Below are positions 42,486-60,864 of a stretch of DNA of 64,000 nt, piece after piece. Numbering within the stretch: position 1 is the first letter of the stretch; each line of letters starts with the position of its first letter. The DNA is taken from positions 248,001 to 312,000 of the forward strand of contig NZ_ML660167.1 in NCBI RefSeq assembly GCF_007004725.1. The letters are read 5' to 3'. Below the pieces are notes generated by a model, which worked only from the letters and a program-made list of their open reading frames with translations, ran no database searches and was not told the DNA's origin. The position numbers and the translations under genes are program-made. This DNA is from Aliikangiella coralliicola. Lineage in GTDB: Bacteria; Pseudomonadota; Gammaproteobacteria; Enterobacterales; Kangiellaceae.

Positions 42486-42486
42486 T

Positions 42487-43664: not shown

Positions 43665-45233
43665 TTAACTCTGACCTTGCGGAGTCTGACCTTGCGGAGC
43701 CTGACCTTGCGGAGTCTGGCCTTGCGGAGTCTGACCTTGCGGAGTCTGGCCCTGTGGAGTCTGGCCCTGTGGAGTCTGGCCCTGTGGAGTCTGGCCCTGT
43801 GGAGTCTGGCCCTGTGGAGTCTGGCCCTGTGGAGTCTGGCCCTGTGGAGTCTGGCCCTGTGGAGTCTGTCGGCTATTTGGGGTTGGCGGTGTCAGAGGTG
43901 TGGTTGCCATAGCCGGTGGTGTTAAATTACTGATTCTCTGTGCCCGTTGCTGTTCCGCAGCTCTTTGCTCCCTTTGGCGAACCGCTCGATTATTCGCTGT
44001 TGTATCTGTTGTTGGCGTAGGGTTTAGGGAAGCTTGTCTTATTCGCTCGGCCTGAGCGCTAGCCGCCATTTGATTTAGAGGTAAGTAATCGGTTCTAAAG
44101 TTAAGTTCAACTGAGGAGTTTAATTCGAGATCAGTATTAATTTCTTCGGTTCGCTGACTTCTCTGGGTTGATACATAGCTGATATTATTTTCAACTTCAG
44201 CCGATGCCCCCCAAGGACCAACGCCAAATGATCCCGATGCGCGAACGCGGTTTTGCATACCAAACTCACGCCCACGATCTTCGCTGGCAGCGCTCCTGGT
44301 ATCAATGTGAAAACGCATCGACGCGTTGATCTTTCCGCTATCGATAACAATTCTCTGCATACCAAGAGTGACCATTGTCGCTAACATTTGTTGTCTCTGT
44401 CTCGCGATTTGGCGGCGGGCAAAAGGTACTAATTGTTCAGGGTTACTGGCGGTGACATTTTCCTCTGGCTCCATGCCAAAAACAGCGCGCATTGCATCCT
44501 GTGAAGGCATGGTGCCACCCGATCTTAATCGCAATCTCGCGGGCTCTACTTCATCATCTTCATCAGGTTCCTCATCTTCAAAATCGCTTTCGCCGCCTTC
44601 CAGTTCAAACGAGCCGGGAAACTGTTCAAGTAACCACTGGCGAACACCGTTTGCAGAAAATTGTGTTTGTTCAAAACCTGATACTGAAGCCGAAACATTG
44701 TTGAGTAATTCGACATACATTTGCATTTGTTGCGAGGTTGAATCAAGCATCGCGGTGAAAACACCGTTAACAAGATCAGTGACAAAACGAGGAAATGAAA
44801 CTGCATTCAGAACACTTTGCGTGACACCGGCAATTCGATTTGCCGACTCACCAAAGCCAGGCTGACTTTGTGCTCTGGCGAGTATCGGTTCTACTTTGTT
44901 TTGTGCGGTATCGGATTGTTCGGCATTGGATTGATCAGATTGTTCCGATAATGCTCGCGCGGTTGGGCTTGGCTCTGACTGAGGGTGATCCTTTTGTTCT
45001 TGTTCAACGCGAGATTGCGCCAGATTTTCTTCAGCAATTAACTTTGCGGCGATATCTGAAACTTTGACCATCGCACGCGCCAGGCTGCGCTTTTCGGAAT
45101 CTTCCAGTTGACGATAACTGTCGGAGTTATCTAGTAAGTTTTTAACCGCTGAACGCAACCAGACAGGCGGTGCTTCATGATCGCTACGATAGAGATCTTG
45201 CGCCTGCGCCACCTGCCCCATCATGTCATCCAA
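43665..45233 (-). CDS. Member A of the four-paralog family, with C-terminal TPQGQ repeats, 522 aa
   Basis: Four blocks are shared with the genes at 46214 and 47504: an N-terminal helix (VKNLLDNSDSYRQL...KRSLARAMVKV), the FPxFVxxLVNGVF helix near 165, the RQQMLATMVTLGMQRIVI segment near 285, and VELNFRTDYLPLNQMA near 375. An acidic patch (FEDEEPDEDDEVE) lies before the third. After residue 400 the chain is low-complexity Gln/Pro/Thr and ends with about 13 TPQGQ units. No signal peptide or membrane helix is clear. It is the last gene of the operon, and its start overlaps the preceding gene by 13 nt. Function is not known. Confidence 0.8.
   Translation of the reverse strand: MDDMMGQVAQAQDLYRSDHEAPPVWLRSAVKNLLDNSDSYRQLEDSEKRSLARAMVKVSDIAAKLIAEENLAQSRVEQEQKDHPQSEPSPTARALSEQSDQSNAEQSDTAQNKVEPILARAQSQPGFGESANRIAGVTQSVLNAVSFPRFVTDLVNGVFTAMLDSTSQQMQMYVELLNNVSASVSGFEQTQFSANGVRQWLLEQFPGSFELEGGESDFEDEEPDEDDEVEPARLRLRSGGTMPSQDAMRAVFGMEPEENVTASNPEQLVPFARRQIARQRQQMLATMVTLGMQRIVIDSGKINASMRFHIDTRSAASEDRGREFGMQNRVRASGSFGVGPWGASAEVENNISYVSTQRSQRTEEINTDLELNSSVELNFRTDYLPLNQMAASAQAERIRQASLNPTPTTDTTANNRAVRQREQRAAEQQRAQRISNLTPPAMATTPLTPPTPNSRQTPQGQTPQGQTPQGQTPQGQTPQGQTPQGQTPQGQTPQGQTPQGQTPQGQTPQGQAPQGQTPQGQS
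43681..43860 (-). repeat. Tandem 15-nt repeat encoding TPQGQ
   Basis: Twelve perfect-length 15-nt units. The eight at 43741-43860 are identical (plus strand GGAGTCTGGCCCTGT), while the four nearest the stop codon vary at two or three positions. Unit length is a multiple of three, so copy-number change would lengthen or shorten the tail without breaking the frame. Confidence 0.95.
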
Positions 45234-46192
45234 GCTGGTAAGTTTTGATTAGCTGAATTATGTGTAGAAGAACTATTTCCGTTTGAATTATCGCTTGCGA
45301 ATAACGATTGTCCAGGAGAAGATTCGAGCGTAGCAAACGCAAGCAACCAGCGGTGCGCTGCCGAAAATAATCGCGATGAGACTTGGGGATTACTAAATTG
45401 AATTTGCCCCGCATTTGGAGTCGCCATCCAATTGATAATATACATACCGGCACTCGCCATTTCAGCGTGCTGTCGAACTTTGTATTCCTGCTTGTCGGCA
45501 CTAACCGCTAGCAATCCCCACAAACTATGAACACCAAATGCCGTGAGTAATGCGCGCGCTTTTAAGAATGTGAGAGCGAGTGATATCGAGTTTAATATAT
45601 CTTCGGAAGCAAAAGTAATCATACCAAGAGAGCGAGAGTAAAAATATTCTCTGAGACTCTGCAAAATGATATCCAGACTCACTTCTTCCTGAAAATCTCT
45701 TTGTTGCTCGTTGTCGGCTAAGGCCGTCACCGCTTCGCATAGTTTGCTAAACTGCGGATAGAAAAATCGTGCTTCAAAAGTTTGTTGGAGTAATGTTTCT
45801 CGTTCCGATTGATTTAAACGCTTATGGCGATTTTGCCAAAATTGGTTGATGGCTTTCTCTGCATCGCCAAGGCTCTGATCAATTGCGCCGCTAAAGAAAA
45901 GCCCTGAAATTCTCTCAGCTGTCGTAAGTAACCCTGCCTGCTCTAACTCAAATGCAAGGTAAAGCGGCGCTAGTGTTTTTAACGCAGAATAATCTCGTGC
46001 CTGCCCGCTAATATCGCCGCGTAAATCCGGTAAAGCTATGTCGCTAAGCGCCTGCATTGTTTGAGCGAGACTCGGCGAGTTTTCCATCACCAGCGCTTGC
46101 GCAAAATCGACGGCTAGTTCTAACTGTTGAGGACTAATGGGTTCAGCAACGGGCAGAAATCTTGAAGAGATTTGGCTTAGTCTGGTCATCAA
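45221..46192 (-). CDS. Helical hypothetical protein of the multi-protease operon, 323 aa
   Basis: Nearly the whole chain is predicted helical (LELAVDFAQALVMENSPSLA; LAPLYLAFELEQAGLL; ALLTAFGVHSLWGLLAV), with a Ser/Asn-rich tail and final PAWMT. No catalytic motif or signal peptide is visible. I do not recognise the family. It lies between two paralog genes, 21 bp after one and overlapping the other, so it should be made in step with them. A scaffold or adaptor role would fit but is not shown. Confidence 0.65.
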   Translation of the reverse strand: MMTRLSQISSRFLPVAEPISPQQLELAVDFAQALVMENSPSLAQTMQALSDIALPDLRGDISGQARDYSALKTLAPLYLAFELEQAGLLTTAERISGLFFSGAIDQSLGDAEKAINQFWQNRHKRLNQSERETLLQQTFEARFFYPQFSKLCEAVTALADNEQQRDFQEEVSLDIILQSLREYFYSRSLGMITFASEDILNSISLALTFLKARALLTAFGVHSLWGLLAVSADKQEYKVRQHAEMASAGMYIINWMATPNAGQIQFSNPQVSSRLFSAAHRWLLAFATLESSPGQSLFASDNSNGNSSSTHNSANQNLPAWMT

Positions 46193-46213
46193 CTTCCTCG
46201 TAATTTCCTTCGG

Positions 46214-47449
46214 TCAGGGATTATTGTTATCGCTTTGCTGCGAACCTGCCGCCGATCTTTTTTCCGGTAGATAGTTAGGGTCAAATGGCGTCGCATTTCC
46301 TTGTATGGCAGAGATCATTCCAGGAGATGCGAGTTTTTCCATTGGAAAATAATCAGACTTAAAGTTCACACGAACTTCCCCTGATAATTTGCTTTTTATT
46401 TCGGCTTTTGATTCGGAAGTTTCGTCAACCGATGAGGAGACGGCTGTCATGTGGCTCTGCACGTTGGTGTTTTTGGTTGCAGCCCCGCCCCATCCAAAAT
46501 GTGCACCAGCTGCTGTGGTATTGCGATTGTAGCTGGAATCTCGATCATACAGGGAAGCTTTAGCGCCTCGTTCGGCCACATCTTGAGCCTTTAAACGAAA
46601 TACTACTTTGGCGTTAATAGCGCCATCGGTAATCACAATTCTATTGATTCCCAATACAACCATTGATGCTAACAACTGTTGCCTGGAGCGAGCCATTTGT
46701 AATCTGGCGGCTTGCACTAAACGTGATTCTTCTTCTGGATCAGAAATATCCGACACCGGACTTGCCAATTCCATTTCCTGATTTACCTGGGTGTAAAACG
46801 CGTCTTCGTCGTCGCCTTGCACTGCCAGTTGAGGGCTACCGTTTTCCTCAATATTTTCTTCATCGAGACCGAGTTGACCGGGAAATTTATCGACCAGCCA
46901 ATCGCGTGCATTGTTTAAACTGATATTGTCCTGAGCGAACTGATCAACGGTTTGAGCAACAGCTTTGAGCATATCAGCGTAAGCTTCCATCTGTTGAATC
47001 GAAGCGTTAACAATCGCCTGAAAGACGTTGTCAATCAGCCCGCCGACAAACATTGGAAAGTCGACCGCGCCAATTAGTTCTTTGAATTGTTCGACCCCTT
47101 GTTCAAGGGCCCCAGCTTGAAAGTCTGCGCCTGCAAATGTACCGATTTTCCCTGACGCTTTTTGTTTCGCACTGTCCACTGCATCTGCTTGCGCATGGGC
47201 AAGAATATTTTCTCCCGGCGTTAGTTCTTTTTCCGCCAAACCTTGCGGATTACTCATATAAGCCGCGACATGAACCATATTTTGCGCAATTTCTTTTTGC
47301 TTATCGGCCGATAGTTCGCGAAACCCCGGCGATTGTTCGAGTAGTCGCTTAACCTGAGGTCGCACTGCTGACAAAGTAGAATCTGCCAGCCAGGCTGGTT
47401 CTTCACTCCCACCTGTTTGTTCTGTTAGTGCTTGGCTGATTTGCGACAT
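46214..47449 (-). CDS. Member B of the four-paralog family, 411 aa
   Basis: It shares the N-terminal helix (VKRLLEQSPGFREL...QKEIAQNMVHV), the FPMFVGGLIDNVF block, RQQLLASMVVLGINRIVITD and VRVNFKSDYFPMEKLA with the other members. Between the third and last blocks lies a stretch of charged and Ser/Thr-rich residues ending in a repeated beta-like pattern (SKAEIKSKLSGEVRVNF). The ATG at 47449 is preferred: it has AACAGGA upstream, whereas the longer frame to 47479 starts with TTG. No signal peptide. Unknown function; see the family comparison in the findings. Confidence 0.8.
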   Translation of the reverse strand: MSQISQALTEQTGGSEEPAWLADSTLSAVRPQVKRLLEQSPGFRELSADKQKEIAQNMVHVAAYMSNPQGLAEKELTPGENILAHAQADAVDSAKQKASGKIGTFAGADFQAGALEQGVEQFKELIGAVDFPMFVGGLIDNVFQAIVNASIQQMEAYADMLKAVAQTVDQFAQDNISLNNARDWLVDKFPGQLGLDEENIEENGSPQLAVQGDDEDAFYTQVNQEMELASPVSDISDPEEESRLVQAARLQMARSRQQLLASMVVLGINRIVITDGAINAKVVFRLKAQDVAERGAKASLYDRDSSYNRNTTAAGAHFGWGGAATKNTNVQSHMTAVSSSVDETSESKAEIKSKLSGEVRVNFKSDYFPMEKLASPGMISAIQGNATPFDPNYLPEKRSAAGSQQSDNNNP

Positions 47450-47503
47450 CTGTTTCGGTCCTGTTAATAATCCAGTCAATGATTTTTCGAAAATCCGCTT
47501 TGG

Positions 47504-48823
47504 CTAATTCGATCCTGACTGGTTGGAAGGTTGTGGCCGATTCGCCAGGTTTTTAACCATTCCCGGTTGCGCATTCATTTGAATTGCGGCGATAGATTCA
47601 GGGTTAGCCAGTTTTTCAAGTGGTAGATAATCACTTTTAAAATTCACTTCAACTGAACCCGATAAAGAAGCCCGGGTTTGTAAACTTGCGTCAACGGAAG
47701 TCTGCGAAGCCGATGCTAATTTCAAAACAGGTTGTGAAGTATTTTTGTATTGGCCTTTCGAATAAAAACTTGCGTTGCGACTGCCTCCCTGATAACTACC
47801 GTCAGCGCCACGACTACCGCCCTGGCGATTGACAGCGCCTTCTCTTTCAAAGTTTCCGCTGCGGGTGGTAATTTGTTGATCGCCATAATCAAATTGTTGT
47901 GCACTTTTACGAAACTTCATATTGTCTCGCGCGCGGAAATCGTACATGACTTTTGCAGCGATTCTGCCATCGGTCACGACCACCCTGTTAATACCCAACA
48001 TAATAGTAGTGGCGAGTAATTGTTGTCGACTGCTGGCGAGTTGACTTCTGGCAGCAGGAACCAGTAGCGCCTCAACCAAACGATCGTCGAGCCGCTCAAC
48101 CGGCTGATCGAGTGGCAGTTCTCGGTTAATCCTTTCAACCGCGGCAGACTGATCAATGCCACTTCGTACCGATACTCTTGGTCCACCGGATTGCTCACTC
48201 CCTTCTCCGCCTTCACCATCAAAATCGCCAAAGTCTGATCCAAACTCTCCGGTATCTACTTTTAATTCAAAAATATCGGGAAAACTTTCAACCAGGTGAT
48301 CGCGCCCCTGATTTTGCGTGGTATTTTCATCTCTGAACTGGTTTAAACTTTTCGAAACATCGGCCACTAATTTGGCATAAGCTTCCATCTGCTCAATAGA
48401 ACTGGTAACGATTGAATGAAAGACGCCGTCGATTAGTCCAGAAACAAATTCAGGAAAGTTAACTGCCTCGAGTAATGCGCCAGCAACTGCTGCGCCTTCG
48501 CGTGCGCTTTGCGCGACAAATTCTCCATCACCTTGTTGCTGTTGTGTTCGTCGACTTCTGACGCCTTCTTCGGCTAACGCACGAACCGAATCACTTTGTT
48601 TAGAAGGGTCAATACGAACACCATCAGGTTCCGCAAGGTATGTTCCAATTTGCACAAGGTCATTGGCCAACGCCCGTCGCTTAACCTCATCGAGTTCGTT
48701 GTAGGCAGCGCTTTTTTGTAATAAATCACGCACTGCGGTACGCGTACTATCGACGTTTTCCTGACTTGCCATTGGGCGTGATGTTCCCGACGGGTTTGTC
48801 GTTGGCACTGGGTTGTTGGACAT
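47504..48823 (-). CDS. Member C of the four-paralog family, 439 aa
   Basis: The same four blocks occur in order: VRDLLQKSAAYNEL...RRALANDLVQI, FPEFVSGLIDGVF, RQQLLATTIMLGINRVVVTD and VEVNFKSDYLPLEKLA. A Gly-rich acidic insert (FGDFDGEGGEGSEQSGG) lies near residue 205, and a Gly/Ser/Gln/Asn-rich stretch follows the third block. The ATG at 48823 has GAGGAGAAAGTT directly upstream, a strong ribosome-binding site. It is the nearest relative of member B, with which it is adjacent. Unknown function. Confidence 0.8.
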   Translation of the reverse strand: MSNNPVPTTNPSGTSRPMASQENVDSTRTAVRDLLQKSAAYNELDEVKRRALANDLVQIGTYLAEPDGVRIDPSKQSDSVRALAEEGVRSRRTQQQQGDGEFVAQSAREGAAVAGALLEAVNFPEFVSGLIDGVFHSIVTSSIEQMEAYAKLVADVSKSLNQFRDENTTQNQGRDHLVESFPDIFELKVDTGEFGSDFGDFDGEGGEGSEQSGGPRVSVRSGIDQSAAVERINRELPLDQPVERLDDRLVEALLVPAARSQLASSRQQLLATTIMLGINRVVVTDGRIAAKVMYDFRARDNMKFRKSAQQFDYGDQQITTRSGNFEREGAVNRQGGSRGADGSYQGGSRNASFYSKGQYKNTSQPVLKLASASQTSVDASLQTRASLSGSVEVNFKSDYLPLEKLANPESIAAIQMNAQPGMVKNLANRPQPSNQSGSN

Positions 48824-48837
48824 AACTTTCTCCTCAA

Positions 48838-49893
48838 TCAGGCCAGAGCGCGACCTTCTTCAATGTTATCTCTCAATTCAAATTCAATCGGTCTGACATA
48901 TAAGCTGATGCTGGCTTCTTTCTTCGGCGTTACTCGAACGCTAAGCACCGAAAAATGTCCTTGTTCGGTTGCACTATCAACCCCAAACGCAGCAAGCCAA
49001 CGATCCATTGCGCTTAATTGTCTTGGTCTTTCCGCTAGCCCCAGTCGTAATAAATCGAGAAAGCGTGTTGGTAAGTCAGGCAACGATGCCAATAAAATTT
49101 CGAGCTTTAATTCGACGCCGTCTGGCGTGTGCCTTAATCCAATCAGAGCACCGCCCTGCGGAATTTCGAAACGTCCGCCGAGTGCCAATCCTACTACTCG
49201 CATTAAGCTGGGTAGCTGATGACCGATCCCGAGATTATTCATTAACGGGCCAAGATTGCTCACATTTAACGGGCCGCGATGCATAAATGTTATCCGCTGA
49301 CTGGCGAGTTCGCGCTTGCATCCAATGGAGGTAAAAATCGGGTAAAGTGTTGGCATGTGAGTCATAACCAAACGACTGGTCTGTGCGAGTTGCGGCGAGA
49401 GTGCTTCGATCTGTGATGGTAGTAACTCATAATAAATTTTGGCGGCGTACAGACCGTCTTCATCAAATGCACTACCAAACCAGGCACCGTAGGACATCCA
49501 ACCTAATCCGCTCAATCCGCGCCATTCTTCACTACGAGAATCAAACCAGTTGAGCGCGTCTTTTCCAAATGCCGGTCCGACAATTCGGCGCATCTCTCGC
49601 GTGGCGTCATTGCGTCTTGAAATTGGCGGCGCAGATGGGCCAAGGGGCTGAATGGTAAAACGGAGTTTATTGGGCTCGGATTCGGAAAACGACGGTTCAT
49701 AAGGGACCGCACCAGGAACCAGCGCATTGTCCGCATAAGCGATATCATCTTCCGGTAAACTGAATGAACGGTTGATGAAATCATCCATGTAGTTGAGCGG
49801 CGATTGCACGCCCAACATTTTCGAAGCCGAGTTAAGTGATTGCTTAACATAGTCAGACATTGGCCGCGCTGTTTTACTGTGATGATGTTGCAT
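48838..49893 (-). CDS. Hypothetical protein of the multi-protease operon, 351 aa
   Basis: After a polar N-terminus with HHH, the sequence alternates helices and two-strand units (GLYAAKIYYELL; SQRITFMHRGPL; GVELKLEILLAS; KKEASISLYVRPIEFEL). The repeated strand-pair plus helix arrangement vaguely recalls the ABBA fold of aromatic prenyltransferases, but I see no diagnostic substrate motif and treat that as speculation. Otherwise unrecognised. It sits 14 bp before paralog C and 23 bp after the 583-aa gene. The start ATG follows ACAGGACGGAATTTGTT. Confidence 0.6.
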   Translation of the reverse strand: MQHHHSKTARPMSDYVKQSLNSASKMLGVQSPLNYMDDFINRSFSLPEDDIAYADNALVPGAVPYEPSFSESEPNKLRFTIQPLGPSAPPISRRNDATREMRRIVGPAFGKDALNWFDSRSEEWRGLSGLGWMSYGAWFGSAFDEDGLYAAKIYYELLPSQIEALSPQLAQTSRLVMTHMPTLYPIFTSIGCKRELASQRITFMHRGPLNVSNLGPLMNNLGIGHQLPSLMRVVGLALGGRFEIPQGGALIGLRHTPDGVELKLEILLASLPDLPTRFLDLLRLGLAERPRQLSAMDRWLAAFGVDSATEQGHFSVLSVRVTPKKEASISLYVRPIEFELRDNIEEGRALA

Positions 49894-49916
49894 AACAAAT
49901 TCCGTCCTGTTTAAAT

Positions 49917-51668
49917 TTACATACCCGGTAGATCAATACCGACGCTTTCGAGTACGTCGCGCGCAACCTGCGGCATCACTGTCGGTTTACTGGCAATCGG
50001 TGGTGACTCGATGGGTTGCGAATATTGATCAACGCTATCGTCTTGAACGCCGCCGACGGCAAGCCACTGTTCGCAAGCATTAACAAAGTCCCAATCCGAT
50101 GGTTTCACTAGCGGACGATTTCCTTCTATATTGCGTAAATGAGGACTACGTAAAACGTCAGTTGATATCACATCTAATCCTGGGCGACCGACTAATCTTT
50201 GATGATTATTGGCCAGCCAACGAATGATTATTGCGCCTGAGTGGGCTTGAATACGATAGCGATAAGTATTACGCAGCCCGCCCAGATAATTAGCATTCAC
50301 CTGGTCGACAACTTGCCACATGTCTCTTGAACCAAATGCTCTTAGCACTTCAGGATCAGATAATAAATCTCGATAATCGAGGATGGTTTGTTGTAACTCA
50401 ACGGCTGTATAGTGAGCCATACCATAACCGTTAACCGAGAGATTTGCGGCAAGTTCGCGGCAGGCTTTTCTGATGGATTCTTGCGAAAGAAATACATTGT
50501 CTCTAGAAAACTTTCTGAAATATTGTGAGACCGCGGAAGTGGTTCTTAGCATCAATTCATAGAAGAGCGCGTTATCGCGACCATATTCAGGATCACCACC
50601 AGGTGTACCAAAAGTTCCCATGAAAAAATTTCTTCTTTCAATTTCATTAAGGCGCTCCGGCATCGTGCGATGATAGCGGTAAAGTGCATCACCGGCGGTT
50701 CCTTTACCCAACGCGATTGCACCACGACGCCATGCTTCGGAGATATAGTCAACCACTTGCGGTAAACGAGCTTCCTCCAGCATCATAAAGAAATAAATCG
50801 CTTGTACCGCTTCAAGGTTTTCTTTAATAATCTCAACGTCTACCGCTTCTTCTAAATCCGGCAGCGCAATTTCCATTGATGAAATTGCACCACTATCATA
50901 AGAACCCGTTGTACCTTCGAATACCGCTTCAATTTTGGTTTCGAGAAAAGAATCGTTTTCAGAAACGCGATCAGAAACAAGTTTTCGTACAACATTGGCT
51001 AATGATTTACTTGATAAGGCAATCACATGATCCGTAATGTGAGGTTTTACTTTTCTTTTGTTAATCGTTCCGAGCATTTCGCCTGTATCCGGATCACGTC
51101 TTTGCGAAATTGTATATCTTGTATCTCCAGGTTCAACACAGCCAATAATTCCATCATAAATTAACTTTTGTTTAATCTGGCTTTCCAGACTGACATTGTG
51201 ACGAGCTTCGAGCCAATTAAAAACTTTTCGGAAAAGATTTAAGTGACTGTCATATTCACCGCGAGCTTCACTTACTTTTTTAGTAAAGTGCTCACGATCG
51301 GGATCAGTGATTCCATCAAGTTGCATCAAGCCACAGATCGCAATTATTTCGAGTTCTTCATCCGAAATGTCAACACCGGGAGCAGCGCCTTTTTGAGTAC
51401 CGACTAGCCCGTGTTCGTGCAAAAGCTCTTCTAATTGTTCATCGGGGGTTTTTAAAACTGTGCCGACAACAGCGCGATAGAAAGGATCGATAACTTCATC
51501 ATGATCGAGCAAGTACTCATAACGCTTTAATTGCCGTTCTTGTTCTGCACTTAAGCCAACTCTTGGGTGTTTATCGCGAATAATCCTCAGGCTTTGCGCC
51601 TTTTCTTCCATTTCGATCCGAACACGGTGGTCACGTTCGCCCAGATCAACTAACACTTTGCGGTTCAT
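49917..51668 (-). CDS. Large soluble hypothetical protein of the multi-protease operon, 583 aa
   Basis: The protein is charged and largely helical, without membrane segments or signal peptide. Recognisable features are only compositional: an N-terminal coiled region (RDHRVRIEMEEKAQSLRIIR), an acidic helix (DISDEELEIIAICGLMQLDG) and a C-terminal part with SGAIIIRWLANNHQRL and a Pro-rich tail. No family match. The ATG has GAGGAGGTAACATC upstream, the strongest ribosome-binding site of the operon. A 222-bp gap separates it from the subtilase gene, so an internal promoter is possible. Confidence 0.65.
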   Translation of the reverse strand: MNRKVLVDLGERDHRVRIEMEEKAQSLRIIRDKHPRVGLSAEQERQLKRYEYLLDHDEVIDPFYRAVVGTVLKTPDEQLEELLHEHGLVGTQKGAAPGVDISDEELEIIAICGLMQLDGITDPDREHFTKKVSEARGEYDSHLNLFRKVFNWLEARHNVSLESQIKQKLIYDGIIGCVEPGDTRYTISQRRDPDTGEMLGTINKRKVKPHITDHVIALSSKSLANVVRKLVSDRVSENDSFLETKIEAVFEGTTGSYDSGAISSMEIALPDLEEAVDVEIIKENLEAVQAIYFFMMLEEARLPQVVDYISEAWRRGAIALGKGTAGDALYRYHRTMPERLNEIERRNFFMGTFGTPGGDPEYGRDNALFYELMLRTTSAVSQYFRKFSRDNVFLSQESIRKACRELAANLSVNGYGMAHYTAVELQQTILDYRDLLSDPEVLRAFGSRDMWQVVDQVNANYLGGLRNTYRYRIQAHSGAIIIRWLANNHQRLVGRPGLDVISTDVLRSPHLRNIEGNRPLVKPSDWDFVNACEQWLAVGGVQDDSVDQYSQPIESPPIASKPTVMPQVARDVLESVGIDLPGM

Positions 51669-51890
51669 GATGTTACCTCCTCTCAGGCATTAAATTTCAA
51701 CAGTGTTATCTTTAACGGTTTCCGCCGTGTGATGAGTGATAAATAATTCCAGTGACACTCACGCTACTTCTTAAAAACCTATTCCTAAAACCAAATCTTA
51801 AAATCTGCTCTTAATACAATTCTTAAAACCTAATACTCAATTCAATTTTTTTGCTCAAACAATTCAACTGATGAGTCAAATCAATAACGC

Positions 51891-53396
51891 CTAACCTGTC
51901 ATTTCCAAATTGCTTTGATCAAGCATGCTATTTTGACCATCTAAATAGTGGTGACTGTCTAGTGTTTGAGACAACAATTGCAGTGCTGCCAGCGCATCAA
52001 CGACACCACTGCCATAACCTTCAACATTCGCTGAGGCAAATGGCCGCGCAGATTGACGTAATATATCTGCCGCTATTGATGCATTTAGCGGGAGAGCTCG
52101 ACGCGCCGCATGGGCCGCCATTAATGCACAGACACCGGCGACAAAAGGAGCGGCAAAACTGGTTCCGGTGACTTGTTGGTATCCATTCATGCCGGTGGTC
52201 CAGACTTTTTTGCCTGGCGCGCACAAATCGACATGGTTTCCTCGCGTACTAAATGCGCATGGGTTTGCGTGATTATCAACGGCACCAACGGCGATTACAC
52301 CTTCGTGTGCCGCGGGATAATATGCTTCTTCAATTCCCGAGTTTCCGCTGGCGGCAACAAGAATGACATCTCTCGATAATGCGTATTTCACTACCTCTTC
52401 GTGAGGGAGCGGCGAAAATTGGCTCAGGCTGGATTTGGCTGTACCAAAACTCATGTTGACGACTTTGACATTCAGATCGATCAGGCGCTTCATTCCTGCG
52501 TCGATATTCGATAATGCGCCGATACCGATTCGTTTTTGAGCAGATAGCCCTGCCCCCAAAACTCGCACTGGCGTGAGTCCGCAACGACCGGCGCCGCCCG
52601 GTGGCAGCAAACCGCCGCTGGCTTGCAGAATTCCGGCACACCCGGTGCCATGGCCCACTTCGTCAAATGGTAGCTCATCAAAACTTCGGTTATCGCCAAC
52701 CAACTGCAGGTCGCCGACCATTGAAGGTTTGAGGTCGACCGTATCAAAACCTCTGCGAATATTAGCGGTTAATGCCCGGTGGTTGGCCATGATTCCCGTA
52801 TCGGCCAGTCCAACAACGACAGAGGGGTCACCAGGCTCAAATCCAAGTGCCTGAGGCAACTGAGTCAGTAAGCGCGACTGCCAGGCTTGCGCCTCGTCAG
52901 TTTCTGTAATTGAATTGGAAGCGTCGGTTTCTGGTGTTCGCTCGAAAACGGGTTCTGAATAAAAAGGTGCAATGCAAATTCGATCAGCCTGAACTTTTTC
53001 AACTATCGGAATTTGTGCAACAGCCTCCATCAGTTGTCTTGCGTGGACGTCGTTCTGAGTTTGAATAAGCAGCACTCTGGCTACGCCGGAAAGTTGCTCG
53101 GCTTCATCGAACCTTCTTGCGCCGATTACGCCAGGTCGTTGTGCCGCCTTGGTGCGCGAATTATGTAGTCGGCAAATTCTGGTGCTGCCACCGTGGTGAC
53201 GTAAAATCCGATCAAAAGGACCACCGTCGAGCCGGTTGGCAGGATGGACGCCGAAGTGACGACAAGCAACCATACTGGGAATTTTTTCTGGCATTTCACC
53301 CAGTTTTAAAGTGACCAGGAAACGCCTTGGTACCGCGTAGTGATTTAAGGTGTTCTGATTTGCAGCATTTTGATAGGGAACTTGAGCTGTCATCAT
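51891..53396 (-). CDS. Subtilisin-like serine peptidase (S8 family), 501 aa
   Basis: The catalytic triad is intact: Asp199 in VGLADTGIMANHRA, His249 in DEVGHGTGCAGIL and Ser413 in GTSFAAPFVAGVC. The oxyanion Asn is likely in VAASGNSG. About 150 residues precede the catalytic domain and may be a propeptide-like domain (VLLIQTQNDVHARQLMEAVA then IPIVEKVQADRI), but no Sec signal is present, so the enzyme is cytoplasmic or leaves the cell by another route. Its ATG overlaps the stop of the trypco2-like gene (ATGA), so the two are translated together. Confidence 0.93.
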   Translation of the reverse strand: MMTAQVPYQNAANQNTLNHYAVPRRFLVTLKLGEMPEKIPSMVACRHFGVHPANRLDGGPFDRILRHHGGSTRICRLHNSRTKAAQRPGVIGARRFDEAEQLSGVARVLLIQTQNDVHARQLMEAVAQIPIVEKVQADRICIAPFYSEPVFERTPETDASNSITETDEAQAWQSRLLTQLPQALGFEPGDPSVVVGLADTGIMANHRALTANIRRGFDTVDLKPSMVGDLQLVGDNRSFDELPFDEVGHGTGCAGILQASGGLLPPGGAGRCGLTPVRVLGAGLSAQKRIGIGALSNIDAGMKRLIDLNVKVVNMSFGTAKSSLSQFSPLPHEEVVKYALSRDVILVAASGNSGIEEAYYPAAHEGVIAVGAVDNHANPCAFSTRGNHVDLCAPGKKVWTTGMNGYQQVTGTSFAAPFVAGVCALMAAHAARRALPLNASIAADILRQSARPFASANVEGYGSGVVDALAALQLLSQTLDSHHYLDGQNSMLDQSNLEMTG

Positions 53397-54256
53397 TGCC
53401 CTGCTCCCGAATCGTTTATTTGGCTGGCGCGTTTACTGCCGGCCAAATGCTCAAGCGCCTGCAGGCTACCATCGAATCCATCGATTAACTGTAATGGCAT
53501 TTTTTCGCCGTTGTCCCACTCTAATATTGCGTCACTGCCTAATTGCACCGCGAGTGGTTCAAGTAACAGTTCGCCATTTTTTAATTCAACCACCGGAACC
53601 CGTTCGCCCCGGGCAAAAACTTTAGGCATTTTAGTTTGATCAATCAACGGCGAACGGACTCTTAGCCTGGCCGGTAAATCGCGGTTGGTCATGCCCGGCT
53701 GTCGTTCGGTGTTGACAGGAGAAGAAACCTCTTGCTGAACTCTGGGAGCGTCTGCTACTTTCAGAAGACGTTGTAAACGATTGTGAGGAAGCCGCGCCAG
53801 TCGGGCAATAACATCGGAGCCGGCTGTTTTTCTCAACTCAACCAGTTGATTAACATTTCGCACGCCAATTCTTTCAAGCTTACGTTGAGTGTCTTCGCTT
53901 TCCTGGCCTCCACCCAATGCATCCCGAAGTGATATTTCTGGTTTTCCAGGTTCGAAATCGATGGCGTTTTCCTCGATCATTGGTTTAGTGATCGTCGTTA
54001 AGCCGAGCTTGATGGTGCTCGCCTCGGTATCGCCAGGCCCGGCTGGTCTGACGTAAACTTCATCATCTAATATTTCGACAAATGCCTTTAAGTCCAGGTC
54101 CACTTCTTTGACGGCGAAAGTCAACGGCATTTTGCCGACTCTGGCTTTTAACGCCATTGAGGCTTGCGCTTTGTCTAACTGTTCGGTTAATGCCTGAATA
54201 AACATGTCAAAGGGCACGCCGCTTTCCTGAATTAAATTTGGGATGTCAGCTTTCAT
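53393..54256 (-). CDS. Trypco2-like plus helix-hairpin domain protein, 287 aa
   Basis: The N-terminus is a helix plus beta-sheet domain (MFIQALTEQLDKAQASM; MPLTFAVKEVDLDLKAFVEI; ASTIKLGLTTITKP) that resembles trypco2, a small domain described as co-occurring with trypsin-like peptidases in bacterial conflict systems. A helix-hairpin-helix-like part follows (LERIGVRNVNQLVELRKTAG; LARLPHNRLQRLLKV), and a beta-rich C-terminus (MPKVFARGERVPVVELKNGE; LLLEPLAVQLGSDAILEWDN). Assignment of trypco2 is by eye. ATGA overlaps on both sides couple it to the subtilase and the 89-aa gene. Confidence 0.55.
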   Translation of the reverse strand: MKADIPNLIQESGVPFDMFIQALTEQLDKAQASMALKARVGKMPLTFAVKEVDLDLKAFVEILDDEVYVRPAGPGDTEASTIKLGLTTITKPMIEENAIDFEPGKPEISLRDALGGGQESEDTQRKLERIGVRNVNQLVELRKTAGSDVIARLARLPHNRLQRLLKVADAPRVQQEVSSPVNTERQPGMTNRDLPARLRVRSPLIDQTKMPKVFARGERVPVVELKNGELLLEPLAVQLGSDAILEWDNGEKMPLQLIDGFDGSLQALEHLAGSKRASQINDSGAGQ

Positions 54257-54522
54257 TGATCGATCTCACCGGTTACTGAATGAACTGACATTTGTTGCCA
54301 ATGAATACGTATTCTGGAAATTCGTTGAAACCAGTTTGCCGCGTCATTTGAACGGGGAACATCGCCTTGCAATACGGTTCCCTGATCGCGAAAAATAACA
54401 CGCATATCAATCGGTAATAACATCTCGGCATCCACAATTGAAACCGGGTTAAGCGGATCGCTACTCACCTCAGTTAGCGCTAATTGCAGATCTTGCAATA
54501 CCATTGAAAAATCTCTTAGCAT
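54253..54522 (-). CDS. Small hypothetical protein of the multi-protease operon, 89 aa
   Basis: The product combines a helical start (DFSMVLQDLQLALTEV) with a strand region (LLPIDMRVIFRDQGTVLQ) and an aromatic helix with strand (WFQRISRIRIHWQQM). No family recognised. It overlaps member D by one base (TAATG) and the trypco2-like gene by four (ATGA), so it is embedded in a chain of coupled genes. A small co-folding partner is plausible but not shown. Confidence 0.6.
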   Translation of the reverse strand: MLRDFSMVLQDLQLALTEVSSDPLNPVSIVDAEMLLPIDMRVIFRDQGTVLQGDVPRSNDAANWFQRISRIRIHWQQMSVHSVTGEIDQ

Positions 54523-55577
54523 TATCCCTGCCCTCCGCTATTGTTCGGCTGATTAGGGGCAATTGCCGGTTGCTGACCGCCGGACTGAGGCACCAGTTGT
54601 CGGTTTTGTTGTTGAGCTATGCCGGGCGCATGTCCTTGAATTAACGCGATACTCGCCGCATCAGTGAGTTGATCAAGTGGCAGAGTTTCACTCACAAAAT
54701 TTAGTTTTACTTCGCCGAATAAATCGGCGCGCACATTGGATTCGTTTTGTGCATTTACAGCCAGCGTAGACACCATGGTATTTCCCTGGCTATAAGTTCG
54801 ACTGCCTCTTTGCCCCCAGTTCTGATCGAGTTCCTGTTGGGGATCGGTGCCAACGGCATAATTTACCTTAGCGGTATCTTGCGCGTTGGCTCTGAACATG
54901 ACTTTAGCGGTAATGGAACCATCACGAACGGCTATTCGGTTAATCCCCAACATCACCATACTGGCGAGCAAGCTCTGCCTCTCGGCGCCGACTTTACTTC
55001 TTACTCTGGGTAAAATTCTTTGTTCTAACATTTCGCTGGTGAGTTCTTCACCTTGCATGTCAAAATCATCTAACCACTCAGGACTTAAGCCCTGACTTCG
55101 TGGTAGCAATTGTGGCTGAGCCTCAGAACCATTAGCCGGTAAAACCAGTTGCACATCGCTGGTATATTTTTGCGATAGCCAGTCGCGCGCCTGATTGTCG
55201 GTCACATTTTCCGAGGTAAATTGATCAACACTTTTACTGATAGCGGCAACCAGATCACTATAACTTTCTAATTGACGAATTGACGCGTCGACAACCGCGT
55301 CAAATGTACCATTCACTAATTGGGAAACGAATCCTGGGAAATCGATTTCGTTGATCATCGAGCCGGCTTTAGCCGCGATTGTGTCGGTTGCCTGTTTTTT
55401 CGGCGTCGGCACTGTCGCCGGGTCGGACTCATCAGCGAACGTTCTGGTCATTTGTCCCTGGCCACCTTGCTGATTCTCACGACCGACTTCGACTCGACGC
55501 TGCGCGAAATTTTGGTCGAGTGTTTCGTCAAAACCGAGGGTGGCCGGTGGAGGACTTGCCAGATGCGGATCTTTCAT
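54522..55577 (-). CDS. Member D of the four-paralog family, 351 aa
   Basis: This is the shortest member: it keeps the FPGFVSQLVNGTF block near 100, RQSLLASMVMLGINRIAVRD near 205 and VKLNFVSETLPLDQLT near 295, but lacks the N-terminal helical block of members A-C. Gln/Gly/Asn-rich termini replace it. Sequence between blocks is more diverged than among A-C, so it is the oldest or most specialised copy. No signal peptide. It lies directly after the triple-protease gene. Confidence 0.8.
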   Translation of the reverse strand: MKDPHLASPPPATLGFDETLDQNFAQRRVEVGRENQQGGQGQMTRTFADESDPATVPTPKKQATDTIAAKAGSMINEIDFPGFVSQLVNGTFDAVVDASIRQLESYSDLVAAISKSVDQFTSENVTDNQARDWLSQKYTSDVQLVLPANGSEAQPQLLPRSQGLSPEWLDDFDMQGEELTSEMLEQRILPRVRSKVGAERQSLLASMVMLGINRIAVRDGSITAKVMFRANAQDTAKVNYAVGTDPQQELDQNWGQRGSRTYSQGNTMVSTLAVNAQNESNVRADLFGEVKLNFVSETLPLDQLTDAASIALIQGHAPGIAQQQNRQLVPQSGGQQPAIAPNQPNNSGGQG

Positions 55578-55617
55578 CTCGCTATCTCTTTATCCATGAA
55601 TCATAGAAATTCATTAA

Positions 55618-58600
55618 CTATTGCTCCCAGCGTCCGGTCAGGTTGTAGCGGCCGTTAGCGAATAAATGGAGGTCCCGAATCGCAATTTTGTCGCTGCCAA
55701 TAGTGCGAGTGAAACGGTATTCGAAACGCACTCTTAAGGCGGCAAATTCTGGCGCGTTTCTTGGGTAGACTATGTTGTCATCCATAATTTTTGCTTTAAC
55801 GGTTAAGCCCCAGCCCACAGCGTCGTTTGTGGCGACGTTGCTAATCAAAATATTGCCGAGGCTCTTGCCATTGTATTGCCAGTTAACTTCAAAACCGGCG
55901 CTGATCTGATCGGTTAAGTAGTTTTCGATGTAAGGCCAATCAGTTAATCGAATGACCGTGCCGTCATGGGCCGGCGGCACTGGCGAAGGTGCGGTATCGT
56001 TTGGATGCTTAAAGCCGCGTAATTGATCTAACTCCCAGGTGATATCGCCTTCGTTATTGACCAGTCGCTCCATAACTGCCCCGGCAACAACCGAGGCGAT
56101 AGCGACTGTGGCACCTTCCATTGAGTGAGCCAGTTCACCATTAGTCGGCTGTTGGGTAACGGCTTCAGGAGATGGAATCAACGCTGGCGTATAATCAGCA
56201 TTTGGTCCATTTGTCTGCCCGTTTGGTGGTACGTCAGATTGTTCATGGCCGGCAACGGGTTTCGCTGAAAATGCAGATGCTGTGCCCGGTTGTAATCCTT
56301 GAGGAATTTGTCCTGAATGTAATATCTGGTACTCAAGATGACCACCAGAATTATCTGTCCTACCTTCGTATAAACTGAGGAAGTCTGCGAAACTCAGGGT
56401 AATTTTTCCTTTAGTTCCAGGCCACGGGTCGTACATAAACATGCGCGTATCTGAACCATCAGCGGCGCCATCGCTTTCCATGCCGACTAACACTCGAGCG
56501 TGTCCTCCGCTATTGGGCGAAAAGTTCATATCCACATACAAAGGACCGTTGGATTGCAGTAATTGGCGCCAGGAGTTAATCGAATAGGAAGCCGGTGGCT
56601 CTGCGACCAGGTTCCAGGTGTCGGCCAGAGCTTGTCTTTGTCGGGGCCAGAGGCCATTTTTGTAGGCGTCAATTACCGGCACTTTTGCCGCAATATCACT
56701 ATCGGCAATCGACATTTGGTCGCGCCAGCCGACGACCATTGCGGCGCAGGCCGCCCAACAGGATGCGACACTACTTTGTGGTTGAAATGGCACACCTTGC
56801 CAGTGAATTGCAAAACTACTGTTTAATGCCCGTGAATGACTGGCAGTTCTTGATAAAGCGATTCCCAGGGGCACATCTTCGGCCAACAGGTGACCGACAT
56901 AATCGAGGCGATCACCAAATAGATCAACAATATCATCAGGAGTACTGGTGGATGGACGAACACCTAACGGGACACTGGCTTGCTCATAGGCATCGAATAC
57001 TAGCTCTGAACAATAAGTTGCACCTGCTTGTCCGATTCTTAGTCCTAACCGATCGGCAATCGCGTTTATCAGCATCGATTTGCCGGGATTAAGAATGCTA
57101 TAACCCACATAAGCAACGCCGGCGTAATTATATGGGTTGCCGATGCGAGTTTTAGCGTAGTTAACTATCTGATTTGCTATCGCGGAATTAACCCGAGGAT
57201 CTCGATAAGCCACAGCAATTAGCGCGCCATTGAGTGCTTGTTCTAAACCGACTTCTCGAACGCCATCGCCGACAGCCTCAATGACTTTGCCGTCACCGAC
57301 ATATAACATTGCATGGCTTACTGCTGATAAAGTGCCTAATCTGATGACGTAGGAAACGATGTGTCGAGCCGTTGAGACGATAATATCACCGGGACTTAAC
57401 GCTTCGATACTAATCGACATGCCGCCTTCGCCAGGATCAAGGGGAATCGCCATCGCCCGACTGTGACCATTTTGCTGCTGATTGCGATTGTGGTAATCAC
57501 AGTCTAAGCCTTTCGCCAATGCAAAACTGGTAGTGCGGCCTTCAATCCAGTCAATCTTGTCCGGTGTGATAAAACAACCACCGTTCAAACCATTTGCTGC
57601 TTGCTCACTGTTCACGTGAACTGCAGCAATTAATGCTTCGAGTTGTCCTGATTCATCACTGAGATGGTAAACCGGAGAACCGCTCGCGCCCATCAGCGTT
57701 AAGATGGGATATTCGATAGTTTCGGGGCTACTTTGACTGTCTACGTATCCGCCGTGTAAATGCTGCATATCGGGATCGATAATTTCATTTAACTCTGGAA
57801 CGACTCTTGAACCAGCCGAATAACCACACACCACGATGGGCATTTGTGTGGAAGGTGTCATATGCAGGAATTTAAAGTATTGCCCGTTAGGTGCCGCAAT
57901 TGGCACGTTATCGATCACTGCTAAATCATTCGCCCAATCACCGGAACCAGAATAATTCGGCGCTATTCTCCACGATGATGAGGTGACCGTTGTTTCTGAA
58001 TAGGGTTTATTTGAAGAGCCGTTTCGCGCCGGAATAATCGTCACCGAAGCTTTATTGGCGAGGTTGTGCGCACAGGTGAGAATGCGGTTAGAACCAATAT
58101 AAAAACCGGTGCCTTGAAACAGGCGACCATCACTGGTTCTCATCAATAACTGGCAAATCGCCGAGTGAGGAAACATCTGTGTGTTAGGAACACCGGCAAA
58201 CCATTCTTCCCGCTCCAGACTGAAGGCATTGTTTTGGCTCATCAATGCGCTTGATGGGTCACTTGGATCATAAAAGGGTCTGATTAATTCCAGCGGCTGA
58301 CTGGTAGCGCCTGGCTGTAGCGGTTGTGAATGGCCGTTATTTGCTCTGTCGCCATCTGTACCGTTATCGGGTGTAGCACCCGGCTGAGTTAGCGTATTTT
58401 GCGCTGGATTACTGGCACTGTTGTCTATTGGCTGGCCGTCAGGTGACTGTCCATTGGTTTGTGGTCGATTGGTTTGTGGTCCATTGGTTTGTCCATTATT
58501 CTGGCTTCCATTGGCCTGGTCGGCGGCACCATTGTTGGTCTCTTCAACCACCGGTAGAGGACCGAAACCATCATCGTAATCGAGCGGCGGACTGGCTTGT

Positions 58601-59142
58601 CCATTAGTGTCGGTAGCTTGACCATTGTTGCCTACCGTTGGCGTTGTTGCCACGTTACTGTCATTAGCGGCAGCCGGCAAAGCATCACCGCCCCACTCTA
58701 AACTGGGGTTACCGTTGGCGACGTTGTTGACGTAACCAGGCGGCGTGAAATTATTAACTACGCGTTGTAAACCTCGGCCAGAAAGACCGCTGATACTGAC
58801 ATACATACTGCCGTTTGACGGTGTCTGTACAAAGTCTGGTTTGCCGTGGGAATTATCAGAATAGGTGGCTAACCCGAAATAAAGTCGTTGTTTGCCAATA
58901 AAATTTGAGAGCACATGAGGGGGCAGCAAGTAAACCGCTTCCCCCCTCGGGGCTCTGATCGCTCCGACTGCGCGACTGGAGTAAAAATTATTGCGGTTTC
59001 TTTGGTTACGATTTTGCGGATGAAACAAAGCAGGATCTGTAGTAACCCCCACTTCGAACAAAGGACTCTCGGTTTGGATATTAAAACCGAGAACACTGAA
59101 CCGATCATCAATTGAATCTCGGTTGGCTCGAATTTGCGGCAT
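55618..59142 (-). CDS. Multi-peptidase protein: trypsin-like, YiiX/NlpC-like and papain-like domains, 1174 aa
   Basis: N-terminal domain (residues 1-140, with NFYSSRAVGAIRAPRGEAVY). A Gln/Asn/Gly-rich linker follows to about 285. A trypsin-like domain comes next with His359 (TCAHNL), Asp406 (NDLAVI) and Ser487 (GASGSP). A YiiX/NlpC-type domain has His610 (VSHAMLYVGDG) and Cys711 (TYCSELVF). A papain-like domain has Cys795 (SCWAACAAM), His881 (GGHARVLVG) and Asp905 (YDPWPG). A C-terminal beta-rich domain of unknown type ends in GRYNLTGRWEQ. All three catalytic sets appear complete. There is no signal peptide. The ATG at 59142 has AGGAGGAG upstream and is preferred to 59157. Such a chain of proteases in one polypeptide suggests ordered activation, but substrates are unknown. 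Confidence 0.88.
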   Translation of the reverse strand: MPQIRANRDSIDDRFSVLGFNIQTESPLFEVGVTTDPALFHPQNRNQRNRNNFYSSRAVGAIRAPRGEAVYLLPPHVLSNFIGKQRLYFGLATYSDNSHGKPDFVQTPSNGSMYVSISGLSGRGLQRVVNNFTPPGYVNNVANGNPSLEWGGDALPAAANDSNVATTPTVGNNGQATDTNGQASPPLDYDDGFGPLPVVEETNNGAADQANGSQNNGQTNGPQTNRPQTNGQSPDGQPIDNSASNPAQNTLTQPGATPDNGTDGDRANNGHSQPLQPGATSQPLELIRPFYDPSDPSSALMSQNNAFSLEREEWFAGVPNTQMFPHSAICQLLMRTSDGRLFQGTGFYIGSNRILTCAHNLANKASVTIIPARNGSSNKPYSETTVTSSSWRIAPNYSGSGDWANDLAVIDNVPIAAPNGQYFKFLHMTPSTQMPIVVCGYSAGSRVVPELNEIIDPDMQHLHGGYVDSQSSPETIEYPILTLMGASGSPVYHLSDESGQLEALIAAVHVNSEQAANGLNGGCFITPDKIDWIEGRTTSFALAKGLDCDYHNRNQQQNGHSRAMAIPLDPGEGGMSISIEALSPGDIIVSTARHIVSYVIRLGTLSAVSHAMLYVGDGKVIEAVGDGVREVGLEQALNGALIAVAYRDPRVNSAIANQIVNYAKTRIGNPYNYAGVAYVGYSILNPGKSMLINAIADRLGLRIGQAGATYCSELVFDAYEQASVPLGVRPSTSTPDDIVDLFGDRLDYVGHLLAEDVPLGIALSRTASHSRALNSSFAIHWQGVPFQPQSSVASCWAACAAMVVGWRDQMSIADSDIAAKVPVIDAYKNGLWPRQRQALADTWNLVAEPPASYSINSWRQLLQSNGPLYVDMNFSPNSGGHARVLVGMESDGAADGSDTRMFMYDPWPGTKGKITLSFADFLSLYEGRTDNSGGHLEYQILHSGQIPQGLQPGTASAFSAKPVAGHEQSDVPPNGQTNGPNADYTPALIPSPEAVTQQPTNGELAHSMEGATVAIASVVAGAVMERLVNNEGDITWELDQLRGFKHPNDTAPSPVPPAHDGTVIRLTDWPYIENYLTDQISAGFEVNWQYNGKSLGNILISNVATNDAVGWGLTVKAKIMDDNIVYPRNAPEFAALRVRFEYRFTRTIGSDKIAIRDLHLFANGRYNLTGRWEQ

Positions 59143-59156
59143 AACTCCTCCTACCA

Positions 59157-59504
59157 TTATTTGGGCTTGGTTTTCGGCGCTTTTGCGGTGACATTGTTGT
59201 CAAGTCGTTGACCGTTAGTTTGGGGATCAATGGAGGACTCATTCATCAGATCCCAGAAATTCGCCAGAGATTCAATCCCGAGCGCCTCAATATAAGGTTT
59301 CATAAAAGTCTGAATGCACCTTAAATCCTGAAAGTAAGTTTTCTCACCGGACTGAACTTGCTCGATTGAACCTCGCCAATCCACCTGCTCTTTCGCTGTA
59401 TTTCCCCCTTCACGCCATATTCGGACAATAAAGGAAGTGGACTTTTCATCGCTCAATGTCATTTCGCTGTTCTCACTGTTAGCTTCAGTATCAATCAGCG
59501 TCAT
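59157..59504 (-). CDS. Small conserved-looking hypothetical protein, first gene of the operon, 115 aa
   Basis: The core reads SFIVRIWREGGNTAKEQVDW followed by RGSIEQVQSGEKTYFQDL. The FxVRIWxE...WRGxIExVQSGExxYFxDL pattern is one I associate with short proteins or domains of unknown function in several bacterial phyla, often beside signalling or protease genes. The flanks are polar and disordered. The ATG at 59504 is chosen over a GTG one codon earlier; neither has a clear ribosome-binding site. Its TAA overlaps the alternative start of the next gene. Confidence 0.6.
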   Translation of the reverse strand: MTLIDTEANSENSEMTLSDEKSTSFIVRIWREGGNTAKEQVDWRGSIEQVQSGEKTYFQDLRCIQTFMKPYIEALGIESLANFWDLMNESSIDPQTNGQRLDNNVTAKAPKTKPK

Positions 59505-59620
59505 CACTGCGGCGTCACATGGTTATCACCGCGTTATCACACGAGAAAATTGTCTGGTGATTGGTTAGTGATGTTGATGAAATTGAAGCGCCGAAAGAGA
59601 TGGTGTGATTTAGGTTTGGC

Positions 59621-59877: not shown

Positions 59878-60864
59878 CTATTTATTAAAGTGTTTAATCG
59901 TTTTCCTAAGCCGCTCATCCGCCAGCGCAATATGCTTTCGTGCCTGATTAATGAGTTTGCCTGGTGATGAATCTGTTGAAGGCCCGACAGTATCAACAGG
60001 AAACTGATCGGTTAGTTCTGGTGGTAATTGTTCGAGTACATTGAATGTTTCAATTGGCAGCTCATCAGATTCGGTTTTTAACTTATGTTCGGGATGTAAC
60101 GCGTGTTCAGCAATTTGATGGTAAAGCTGCATTGTTTGCCGCATGGGTGGAATGGCCAATTCTTTACGCAATAAATTACGGCATTCCTCAAACTGTCGTA
60201 ATGCCATTGCCCTTTGTCCGCTCAGCTCATAAAGTTCCATCAACTCTCGATGGACGTCTTCTCGCAAGGGTTCATTATCGAGAATAAGTTGAGCATATCG
60301 AATACTCGAACGGTAATCTTTCTGAAAGCGATAATACTCGATTAATTTCCGCAGCACGTTGAAATACACGCGCCTGATTTTCTCTCTTTCTCGCAATGCC
60401 CACTCTGCAGTGAAGTTGCCGAGAATATCAGCGCTATATAACTCTACCGATTCACACAATGAATTGACCTGTGTTTGAGTGAGCTTGTCCACTCGATTAG
60501 TCGTTGACTGGCATGCTTTACGTTTAAATTCCTCGATATCCAGGTAAACGTCGGCTTCTTTGCGAAAGCAGAGAAAGCCTCTGCAGTCCCGACGGAAAAG
60601 CTCGCCGGCGCGATAATATTTTTTCTCGATTTTTTTTCTCAGTCGCCACAAGGTTGTGTTAAAAGCCCCTTGCGAGACCTCTTTGCCATAGTTATCTTCC
60701 CAAATTTCGGAAACCAGTTCATCACGGCTAAAATATCGGCCGCGAAATAAAGATAGAAAAGCTAAAATATCGCCCACTTTGGTGGTTAAAGTTAACGGGT
60801 TGATATTTCCATCAGGCATAGCATGTTGCACCGACAAAGATCCAAACAATTGAATATGAATCAT
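59878..60864 (-). CDS. BTAD-domain (SARP-like) transcriptional regulator, 328 aa
   Basis: An OmpR-type winged helix occupies residues 1-100 (IHIQLFGSLSVQ; RGRYFSRDELVSEIWEDNYG; GAFNTTLWRLRKKIEKKYYR). A BTAD helical domain follows at about 105-255 (RVYFNVLRKLIEYYRFQKDY; LREDVHRELMELYELSGQRA; LRQFEECRNLLRKELAIPP). This is the SARP/DnrI-AfsR layout, common in Actinobacteria and less so in Gammaproteobacteria, where it usually activates a nearby cluster. It lacks the ATPase domain of AfsR. It lies just upstream of, and on the same strand as, the multi-protease operon, so it is the natural candidate for its regulator. Confidence 0.88.
   Translation of the reverse strand: MIHIQLFGSLSVQHAMPDGNINPLTLTTKVGDILAFLSLFRGRYFSRDELVSEIWEDNYGKEVSQGAFNTTLWRLRKKIEKKYYRAGELFRRDCRGFLCFRKEADVYLDIEEFKRKACQSTTNRVDKLTQTQVNSLCESVELYSADILGNFTAEWALREREKIRRVYFNVLRKLIEYYRFQKDYRSSIRYAQLILDNEPLREDVHRELMELYELSGQRAMALRQFEECRNLLRKELAIPPMRQTMQLYHQIAEHALHPEHKLKTESDELPIETFNVLEQLPPELTDQFPVDTVGPSTDSSPGKLINQARKHIALADERLRKTIKHFNK

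Follow-up and report, generated by a model that had tools for sequence, protein, structure and literature searches.

In the genome of Aliikangiella coralliicola, the 64,000-nucleotide stretch analysed here (contig NZ_ML660167.1, positions 248,001 to 312,000; hereafter the window) carries an operon of 12 minus-strand open reading frames (ORFs) at positions 43665-59507. In the direction of transcription, the gene order is g1, g2, g3/A, g4, g5, g6, g7, g8, g9/B, g10/C, g11, and g12/D, where A, B, C, and D are the four paralogs of a beta-hairpin protein family. The ten core genes (A, g4-g8, B, C, g11, and D), plus g2 upstream, behave as one co-inherited unit. The operon appears to be undescribed, and new relative to the sources covered, and is perhaps a membrane-attacking or conflict device. 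An earlier sequence-only reading of the window had proposed an undescribed multi-protease operon with four paralogs, comprising about 12 tightly packed genes with one 222-bp gap; the packing is confirmed by the coordinates, and a co-conserved system is supported by the conserved gene order described below. Overlaps calculated from the coordinates are 1 nt at g1/g2 and g3/g4, 4 nt at g4/g5 and g5/g6, and 13 nt at g11/g12, while the other junctions are gaps of 40, 23, 14, 24, and 21 nt, apart from the 222-nt gap before g7 (51669-51890), in which a scan for promoter- or terminator-like sites found none.

The distribution of the operon was examined by scanning GTDB genomes with an alignment of paralogs B and C, which confirmed 124 relatives, the best 80 of which were kept as loci. 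The order A-g4-g5-g6-g7-g8-B-C-g11-D was kept in all of these 80 best loci (80/80), and chance clustering of the genes was rejected on this ground, with the reservation that some loci contain as few as three families and so provide a weak test of order. All ten core families were present in 55/80 loci, and the remainder were without at least one of them, partly through contig ends. Since the loci were found via paralogs B and C, these two are present by selection, which does not apply to the other families. A match to g2 was located upstream of A in 65 of 91 sources, the upstream flank often being cut. Carriers among the relatives kept include Lysobacter, Xanthomonas, Ramlibacter, Burkholderia, Sphingomonas, Roseobacter, Bradyrhizobium, and Cyanobacteria, as well as Acidobacteriaceae, Anaerolineae, Cellulomonas, Desulfobulbus, and Myxococcales; several of them are metagenome-assembled genomes, in which contamination is possible. 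The occurrence of the same order in many phyla marks the operon as one machine.

A gene-for-gene equivalent of the operon was found on a plasmid of Burkholderia pyrrocinia, where the annotations go no further than hypothetical proteins, S8 peptidase, amidase, and DUF3467. The window proteins share about 25-47% identity with the Burkholderia proteins; BLAST of g1 and g4 against this cluster gave no match, and g4 was matched there by profile. The retention of an eleven-gene order across phyla, despite divergence to such levels of identity, is rare outside essential or dedicated machines.

Scattered homologues, which the sequence-only reading had named as a possible refutation, were looked for and not seen in the genomes searched. 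In all 34 carrier genomes searched, the paralogs were confined to the cluster on a single contig, and their number was four in 30 genomes (one of these with a paralog set in two pieces) and five in the other 4; as these genomes were picked as carriers, the result tests scatter and not prevalence. Furthermore, in a sample of 198 genomes from one family (that of a Lysobacter), g8 was detected in 20, all of which also had 3-4 paralogs. Several observations weigh against the picture of a strictly linked, widely held unit. In one further genome of the same 198, 3 paralogs were found but no match to g8, and the C paralog there sits where a contig begins; in 3 others, the only hit was one short paralog match each (E 1.2e-6 to 2.2e-9), with no g8. 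A phylum sample of 398 genomes matched only in the window genome and in one weak fragment (E 5.4e-4), a scarcity indicating that the system is rare, and only 3 of 292 cyanobacteria were carriers, one of the 3 being the sample's own centre genome. Within the window's genus, 3 of 7 genomes carry the system, and the operon is thus accessory. A phage origin was also rejected, as no confirmed relative of g7 or g8 was found in viral contigs (by scans based on few short peptide patterns). Paralog C had no match in 50,697 phage records.

With regard to the individual proteins, the libraries used (Pfam, NCBIfam, PADLOC, and PHROGs; paralogs B and C were left out of the NCBIfam and PADLOC scans, and g2 and paralog B out of the PHROGs scan) name, beyond weak matches, only the subtilase, the g2 peptidase domains, and the regulator. 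The operon seems to be unnamed, and it holds families that no library used names. Membership in the defence systems of PADLOC-DB 2.0.0 was rejected, because the 10 of 12 proteins scanned gave no signature match and the partial matches concerned subtilase and trypsin domains only (subtilase, IetS, LmuA, and RT-Protease); a described system, the other refutation named at the outset, was thus looked for in PADLOC and not found. The open-access PMC literature, to which the search was confined with subscription papers and preprints outside it, contained no description of the operon.

The protein g8 (351 aa; 48838-49893) is predicted by modelling to form an ABBA barrel spanning the whole chain, the fold of DMATS-type aromatic prenyltransferases (such as CymD, PriB, and DMATS1; PF11991), although identity to the DMATS-type matches listed is 10-18%. 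When the g8 profile was aligned by hhalign with 11 bacterial DMATS proteins, 320 columns were covered, with E 3.3e-4 and probability 38% in local mode and E 6.8e-6 and 67% in global mode, whereas three other operon families used as controls in local mode gave probabilities of at most 0.1%. These values suggest a modest sequence relationship. A Pfam scan of g8 gave no match, and a PDB profile search returned noise at E <=1, joined at E <=10 by the AuraA prenyltransferase (E 1.3-1.4). DMATS enzymes have a catalytic Glu and a diphosphate-binding Arg/Lys/Tyr set. In the g8 family, E66 is kept in 78, R78 in 73, K152 in 70, Y154 in 72, and Y332 in 75 of 80 sequences; these counts, like the Trp counts given below, include the window, Burkholderia, the reduced systems, additional paralogs filed under C, and two genomes that appear twice. 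The DMATS Arg-x-Lys-x-Tyr strand motif is not retained, and the window g8 reads Gln-Arg-x-Thr-Phe in its place. Fold and profile comparison together point to g8 as a DMATS-fold, prenyltransferase-like protein from a branch of the ABBA superfamily that had stayed hidden. Unlike DMATS enzymes, it sits with proteases and hairpin paralogs and not in a metabolite cluster.

The four-member paralog family anticipated from the sequence is real: identity to A is 35% for paralog B, 32% for C, and 26% for D. The corresponding genes are g3/A (54522-55577), g9/B (47504-48823; the longest hairpin), g10/C (46214-47479), and g12/D (43665-45233), the last with TPQGQ tandem repeats at its C-terminus (about 43668-43870), a tail that differs among relatives. 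In a quick tree of 133 paralogs, B forms one clade, as do A, C, and D individually once the reduced systems (L008, L107, and L109) are disregarded; with these set aside, the Shimodaira-Hasegawa-like approximate likelihood ratio test (SH-aLRT) gives 95-100 for the A, B, C, and D clades across phyla. The set of four hence predates its dispersal among phyla. An AlphaFold2 model of paralog C (mean predicted local distance difference test score, pLDDT, 72) combines helices with a hairpin (279-323/334-377) whose tip is modelled at low confidence. Hairpin arms were taken from sequences with a motif-found hairpin (53/74 for A, 70/82 for B, 71/90 for C, and 15/82 for D, so D is thinly sampled), and their beta-type hydrophobic moment exceeded that of shuffled sequences in 105/106, 136/140, 141/142, and 30/30 arms, respectively.

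At the tips of C and D, Gly and aromatic residues abound and 6% of residues are charged, compared with 31% and 24% in their arms, while A is intermediate (tip 15%, arms 20%) and the tip of B is charged (33%). A tip Trp is near invariant in A (Trp254; 65/71), C (79/89), and D (77/80), and paralog B has no alignment column with Trp in more than 30% of sequences. A fold search with paralog C against solved and viral structures yielded weak, hairpin-level likeness to binary-toxin translocases, lysenin, aerolysin, FliF rings, and phage collars, and its top match among viral structures was a podovirus lower collar protein (E 5.2e-4, template modelling (TM) score 0.11). The paralogs, g7, and g5 were also compared with the PDB by profile, which gave no useful match. 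The oligomeric beta-hairpin pores among these matches also have a long amphipathic hairpin, which in C and D bears an uncharged aromatic/Gly tip. Unlike those pores, the paralogs have a helical remainder and four co-occurring members, and the fold matches are weak and restricted to the hairpin.

Both anticipated proteases are likewise confirmed. The protein g6 (51891-53396) is a subtilase (S8; PF00082, E 1.2e-34), whose Asp/His/Ser triad (D199/H249/S413) is present in 75 of 77 aligned family sequences, including the window's, that is, in every sequence not gapped there. The other, g2 (1179 aa; 55618-59157), had been described as a triple-peptidase protein, and Pfam identifies Trypsin_2, Peptidase_C92, and Peptidase_C70 cassettes between a conserved N-terminal region of about 200 aa and a C-terminal part. 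In the window's g2, the motifs expected of catalytic residues are present in all three domains. Among 20 further full-length g2 proteins, besides those of the window and Burkholderia, the N-terminal region is retained in all 20, the profile also reaches the C-terminal end in 16, and the relatives vary in their sets of Trypsin_2, Amidase_2, C92, C70, M15, and DUF3238 domains; in two g2 proteins (L129 and L130), Pfam detected none of these. Judged by these domain sets, the catalytic cassettes of g2 are swapped between relatives. Most of the cassette families act on proteins or peptidoglycan.

The remaining core proteins are less easily placed. For the proposed trypco2-like protein, g5 (53393-54256), the label is weak: the window protein has no Pfam match, and 12 of 25 family members match Trypco2 weakly at E <=0.1 (best 1.4e-4). 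The protein g7 (583 aa; 49917-51668) belongs to no known family and is related to g11 (45221-46192), which resembles its C-terminal half; the possibility that g7 is a remote member of the hairpin family was rejected (probability 0.14%). The small conserved protein g4 (89 aa) is encoded at 54253-54522. Crude hydropathy over the operon proteins revealed no clear signal peptide or membrane helix, in agreement with the sequence-only reading as to signal peptides; the top 19-residue means were 1.62 in g6 (near the catalytic Ser), 1.59 in g11, and 1.57 in g2 and paralog C, and the N-terminal start of g11 is moderately hydrophobic.

A working mechanism can tentatively be drawn, and we regard it as possible: paralogs A-D would come together in a hetero-oligomeric ring, with their long amphipathic beta-hairpins acting on a membrane or within it. 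A heteromer is suggested because A, B, C, and D each form one clade across phyla outside the reduced systems. Assembly would be triggered when a component is cut by the subtilase g6, which the Trypco2-like g5 may hold in place, and a proteolytically activated complex of this kind would fit with the invariant subtilase triad. The protein g8 would either serve as a scaffold or act on one of the components, where prenylation of tip tryptophans is one possibility; g7, g11, and g4 would be structural or gating parts. The assembly would then deploy g2, whose swapped cassettes could attack proteins and peptidoglycan, and the likely result would be that a cell is lysed or killed, either a rival or the one that is infected. 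Such a membrane-acting device would link prenylation, proteolytic maturation, and cell-wall/protein hydrolysis in one system.

It is much more doubtful that the tip Trp residues of A, C, and D are prenylated by g8, giving a lipidated four-part hairpin complex that, once cleaved by the subtilase, enters the membrane and deploys an interchangeable hydrolase warhead. This idea arises because DMATS enzymes often prenylate tryptophan, the core has no recognised metabolite gene, and the tips carry a conserved Trp. However, Trp is often conserved anyway, and it is kept as well at positions 133 and 168 of A and 200 of D, which weighs against tip prenylation. If true, it would amount to a bacterial weapon or immune effector of a new kind, and to a DMATS-like enzyme that prenylates tryptophan in proteins. 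Residues that can be offered for testing are g6 Ser413, g8 Glu66, and the tip Trp of A, C, and D.

An abortive-infection-like role within the cell, close to the cytoplasmic conflict module of the sequence-only reading, seems somewhat unlikely; here, a cytoplasmic complex would sense infection and unleash trypsin, C70, and subtilase activities, the paralogs being scaffold or sensor with no pore. The name Trypco2 was given to genes that neighbour trypsin-like peptidases in vWA-MoxR conflict systems, themselves predicted (PMC7159879 and PMC10907252), and the operon may resemble the VMAP/MoxR-vWA ternary conflict systems (PMC7159879) in having a Trypco2-like protein near a trypsin-domain protein. 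The lack of clear secretion signals and the patchy distribution within the genus also accord with a conflict role. On the other hand, no MoxR ATPase, vWA, NTPase, or STAND domain was found in Pfam scans of the 12 operon proteins, and g5 is present where g2 has no detected trypsin domain (in Burkholderia and with 8 of the 20 further g2 proteins), so the operon is not assigned to the VMAP systems, from which it also differs in its fixed eleven-gene order, hairpin paralogs, and prenyltransferase fold. Moreover, peptidoglycan amidase cassettes would hardly be sensible in the cytoplasm, and few of 92 downstream flank proteins match PADLOC, a count with no baseline for comparison.

Export of g2 by a secretion or surface apparatus (phage-tail-, collar-, or ring-like), degrading external walls or proteins for predation or nutrient release, is judged unlikely. 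External targets would suit the g2 cassettes, the weak matches of paralog C include phage collar/upper-tail and FliF ring proteins, and Lysobacter and Myxococcota, both of lytic habit, are among the carriers, but no tube, sheath, baseplate, or ATPase homologue was found in Pfam or, g2 and paralog B apart, in PHROGs, nor a clear membrane helix by crude hydropathy. Maturation of a prenylated ribosomal product is very unlikely. Cyanobactin (PatA/F/G) pathways contain a subtilase plus an ABBA-fold protein, as the operon does, and g8 could by analogy prenylate a gene-encoded substrate (the paralogs or g4) that g6 and g2 trim. The g6 protein is indeed weakly similar to the PatA/PatG protease model TIGR03895, yet its score of 74 bits falls far short of the 421-bit threshold; no YcaO domain was detected by Pfam among the 12 proteins, no precursor peptide was seen, and the substrates would be proteins of 350-520 aa or g4, which by eye has no core-peptide pattern. 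The membrane-acting hairpin assembly is tentatively preferred to these readings.

Variant loci extend the range of the family. Loci L098-L102, from Myxococcota and two gammaproteobacteria, hold a fifth paralog beside C, and a g2-like gene lies downstream of D in L098-L101. In another genus of the window's family, a three-gene miniature (L109:10042-12484) consists of two hairpin paralogs followed by a protein with a Trypco-like start (by eye), and L107 likewise has two hairpin-family paralogs; these reduced sets possibly represent an ancestral core. A Tolypothrix plasmid (L008:10632-20803) bears another reduced form with a subtilase, a peptidoglycan-binding coiled-coil protein, g7, one paralog, two unknowns, a small protein resembling g4 by eye, and a g5-like protein. 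Like the operon, L008 and L109 thus combine one or two paralogs with a g5-like protein (and, in Tolypothrix, with S8 and g7), whereas both are without a g8 match and a four-paralog set. In Paraburkholderia, a solitary g7 relative (L009:13737-14903) lies a few kb from a large protein (18352-22341) that by eye is STAND NTPase-like with beta-propeller repeats.

Upstream of the operon, a BTAD/OmpR-type regulator (59878-60864, minus strand; PF03704 E 3.9e-21, PF00486 E 2.5e-9) lies 370 nt from g1 (116 aa; 59157-59507) and likely controls the operon. Its presence had been correctly recognised from the sequence, but it is not a constant part of the system, as the BTAD model matched 6 of 20 upstream stretches. 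The g1 model matched 2 of the 20, and in B. pyrrocinia the place of g1 is taken by the DUF3467 protein. A sigma-54 regulator is located upstream of the Burkholderia cluster, and in the Roseobacter group a sigma-54-factor-like gene lies directly 3′ of paralog D (L072:13730-14962 and L077:13770-15038); these are presumably the 2 of 92 flank proteins with sigma-54 factor domains. Just downstream of the operon in the window (41286-42918), a small ion-channel protein (Ion_trans_2) adjoins a sodium/glutamate symporter. Elsewhere in the window, a 4838-aa ORF (12628-27144, plus strand) and a lysine/ornithine monooxygenase gene (61361-62623) may, as a guess, form a siderophore-type assembly line.

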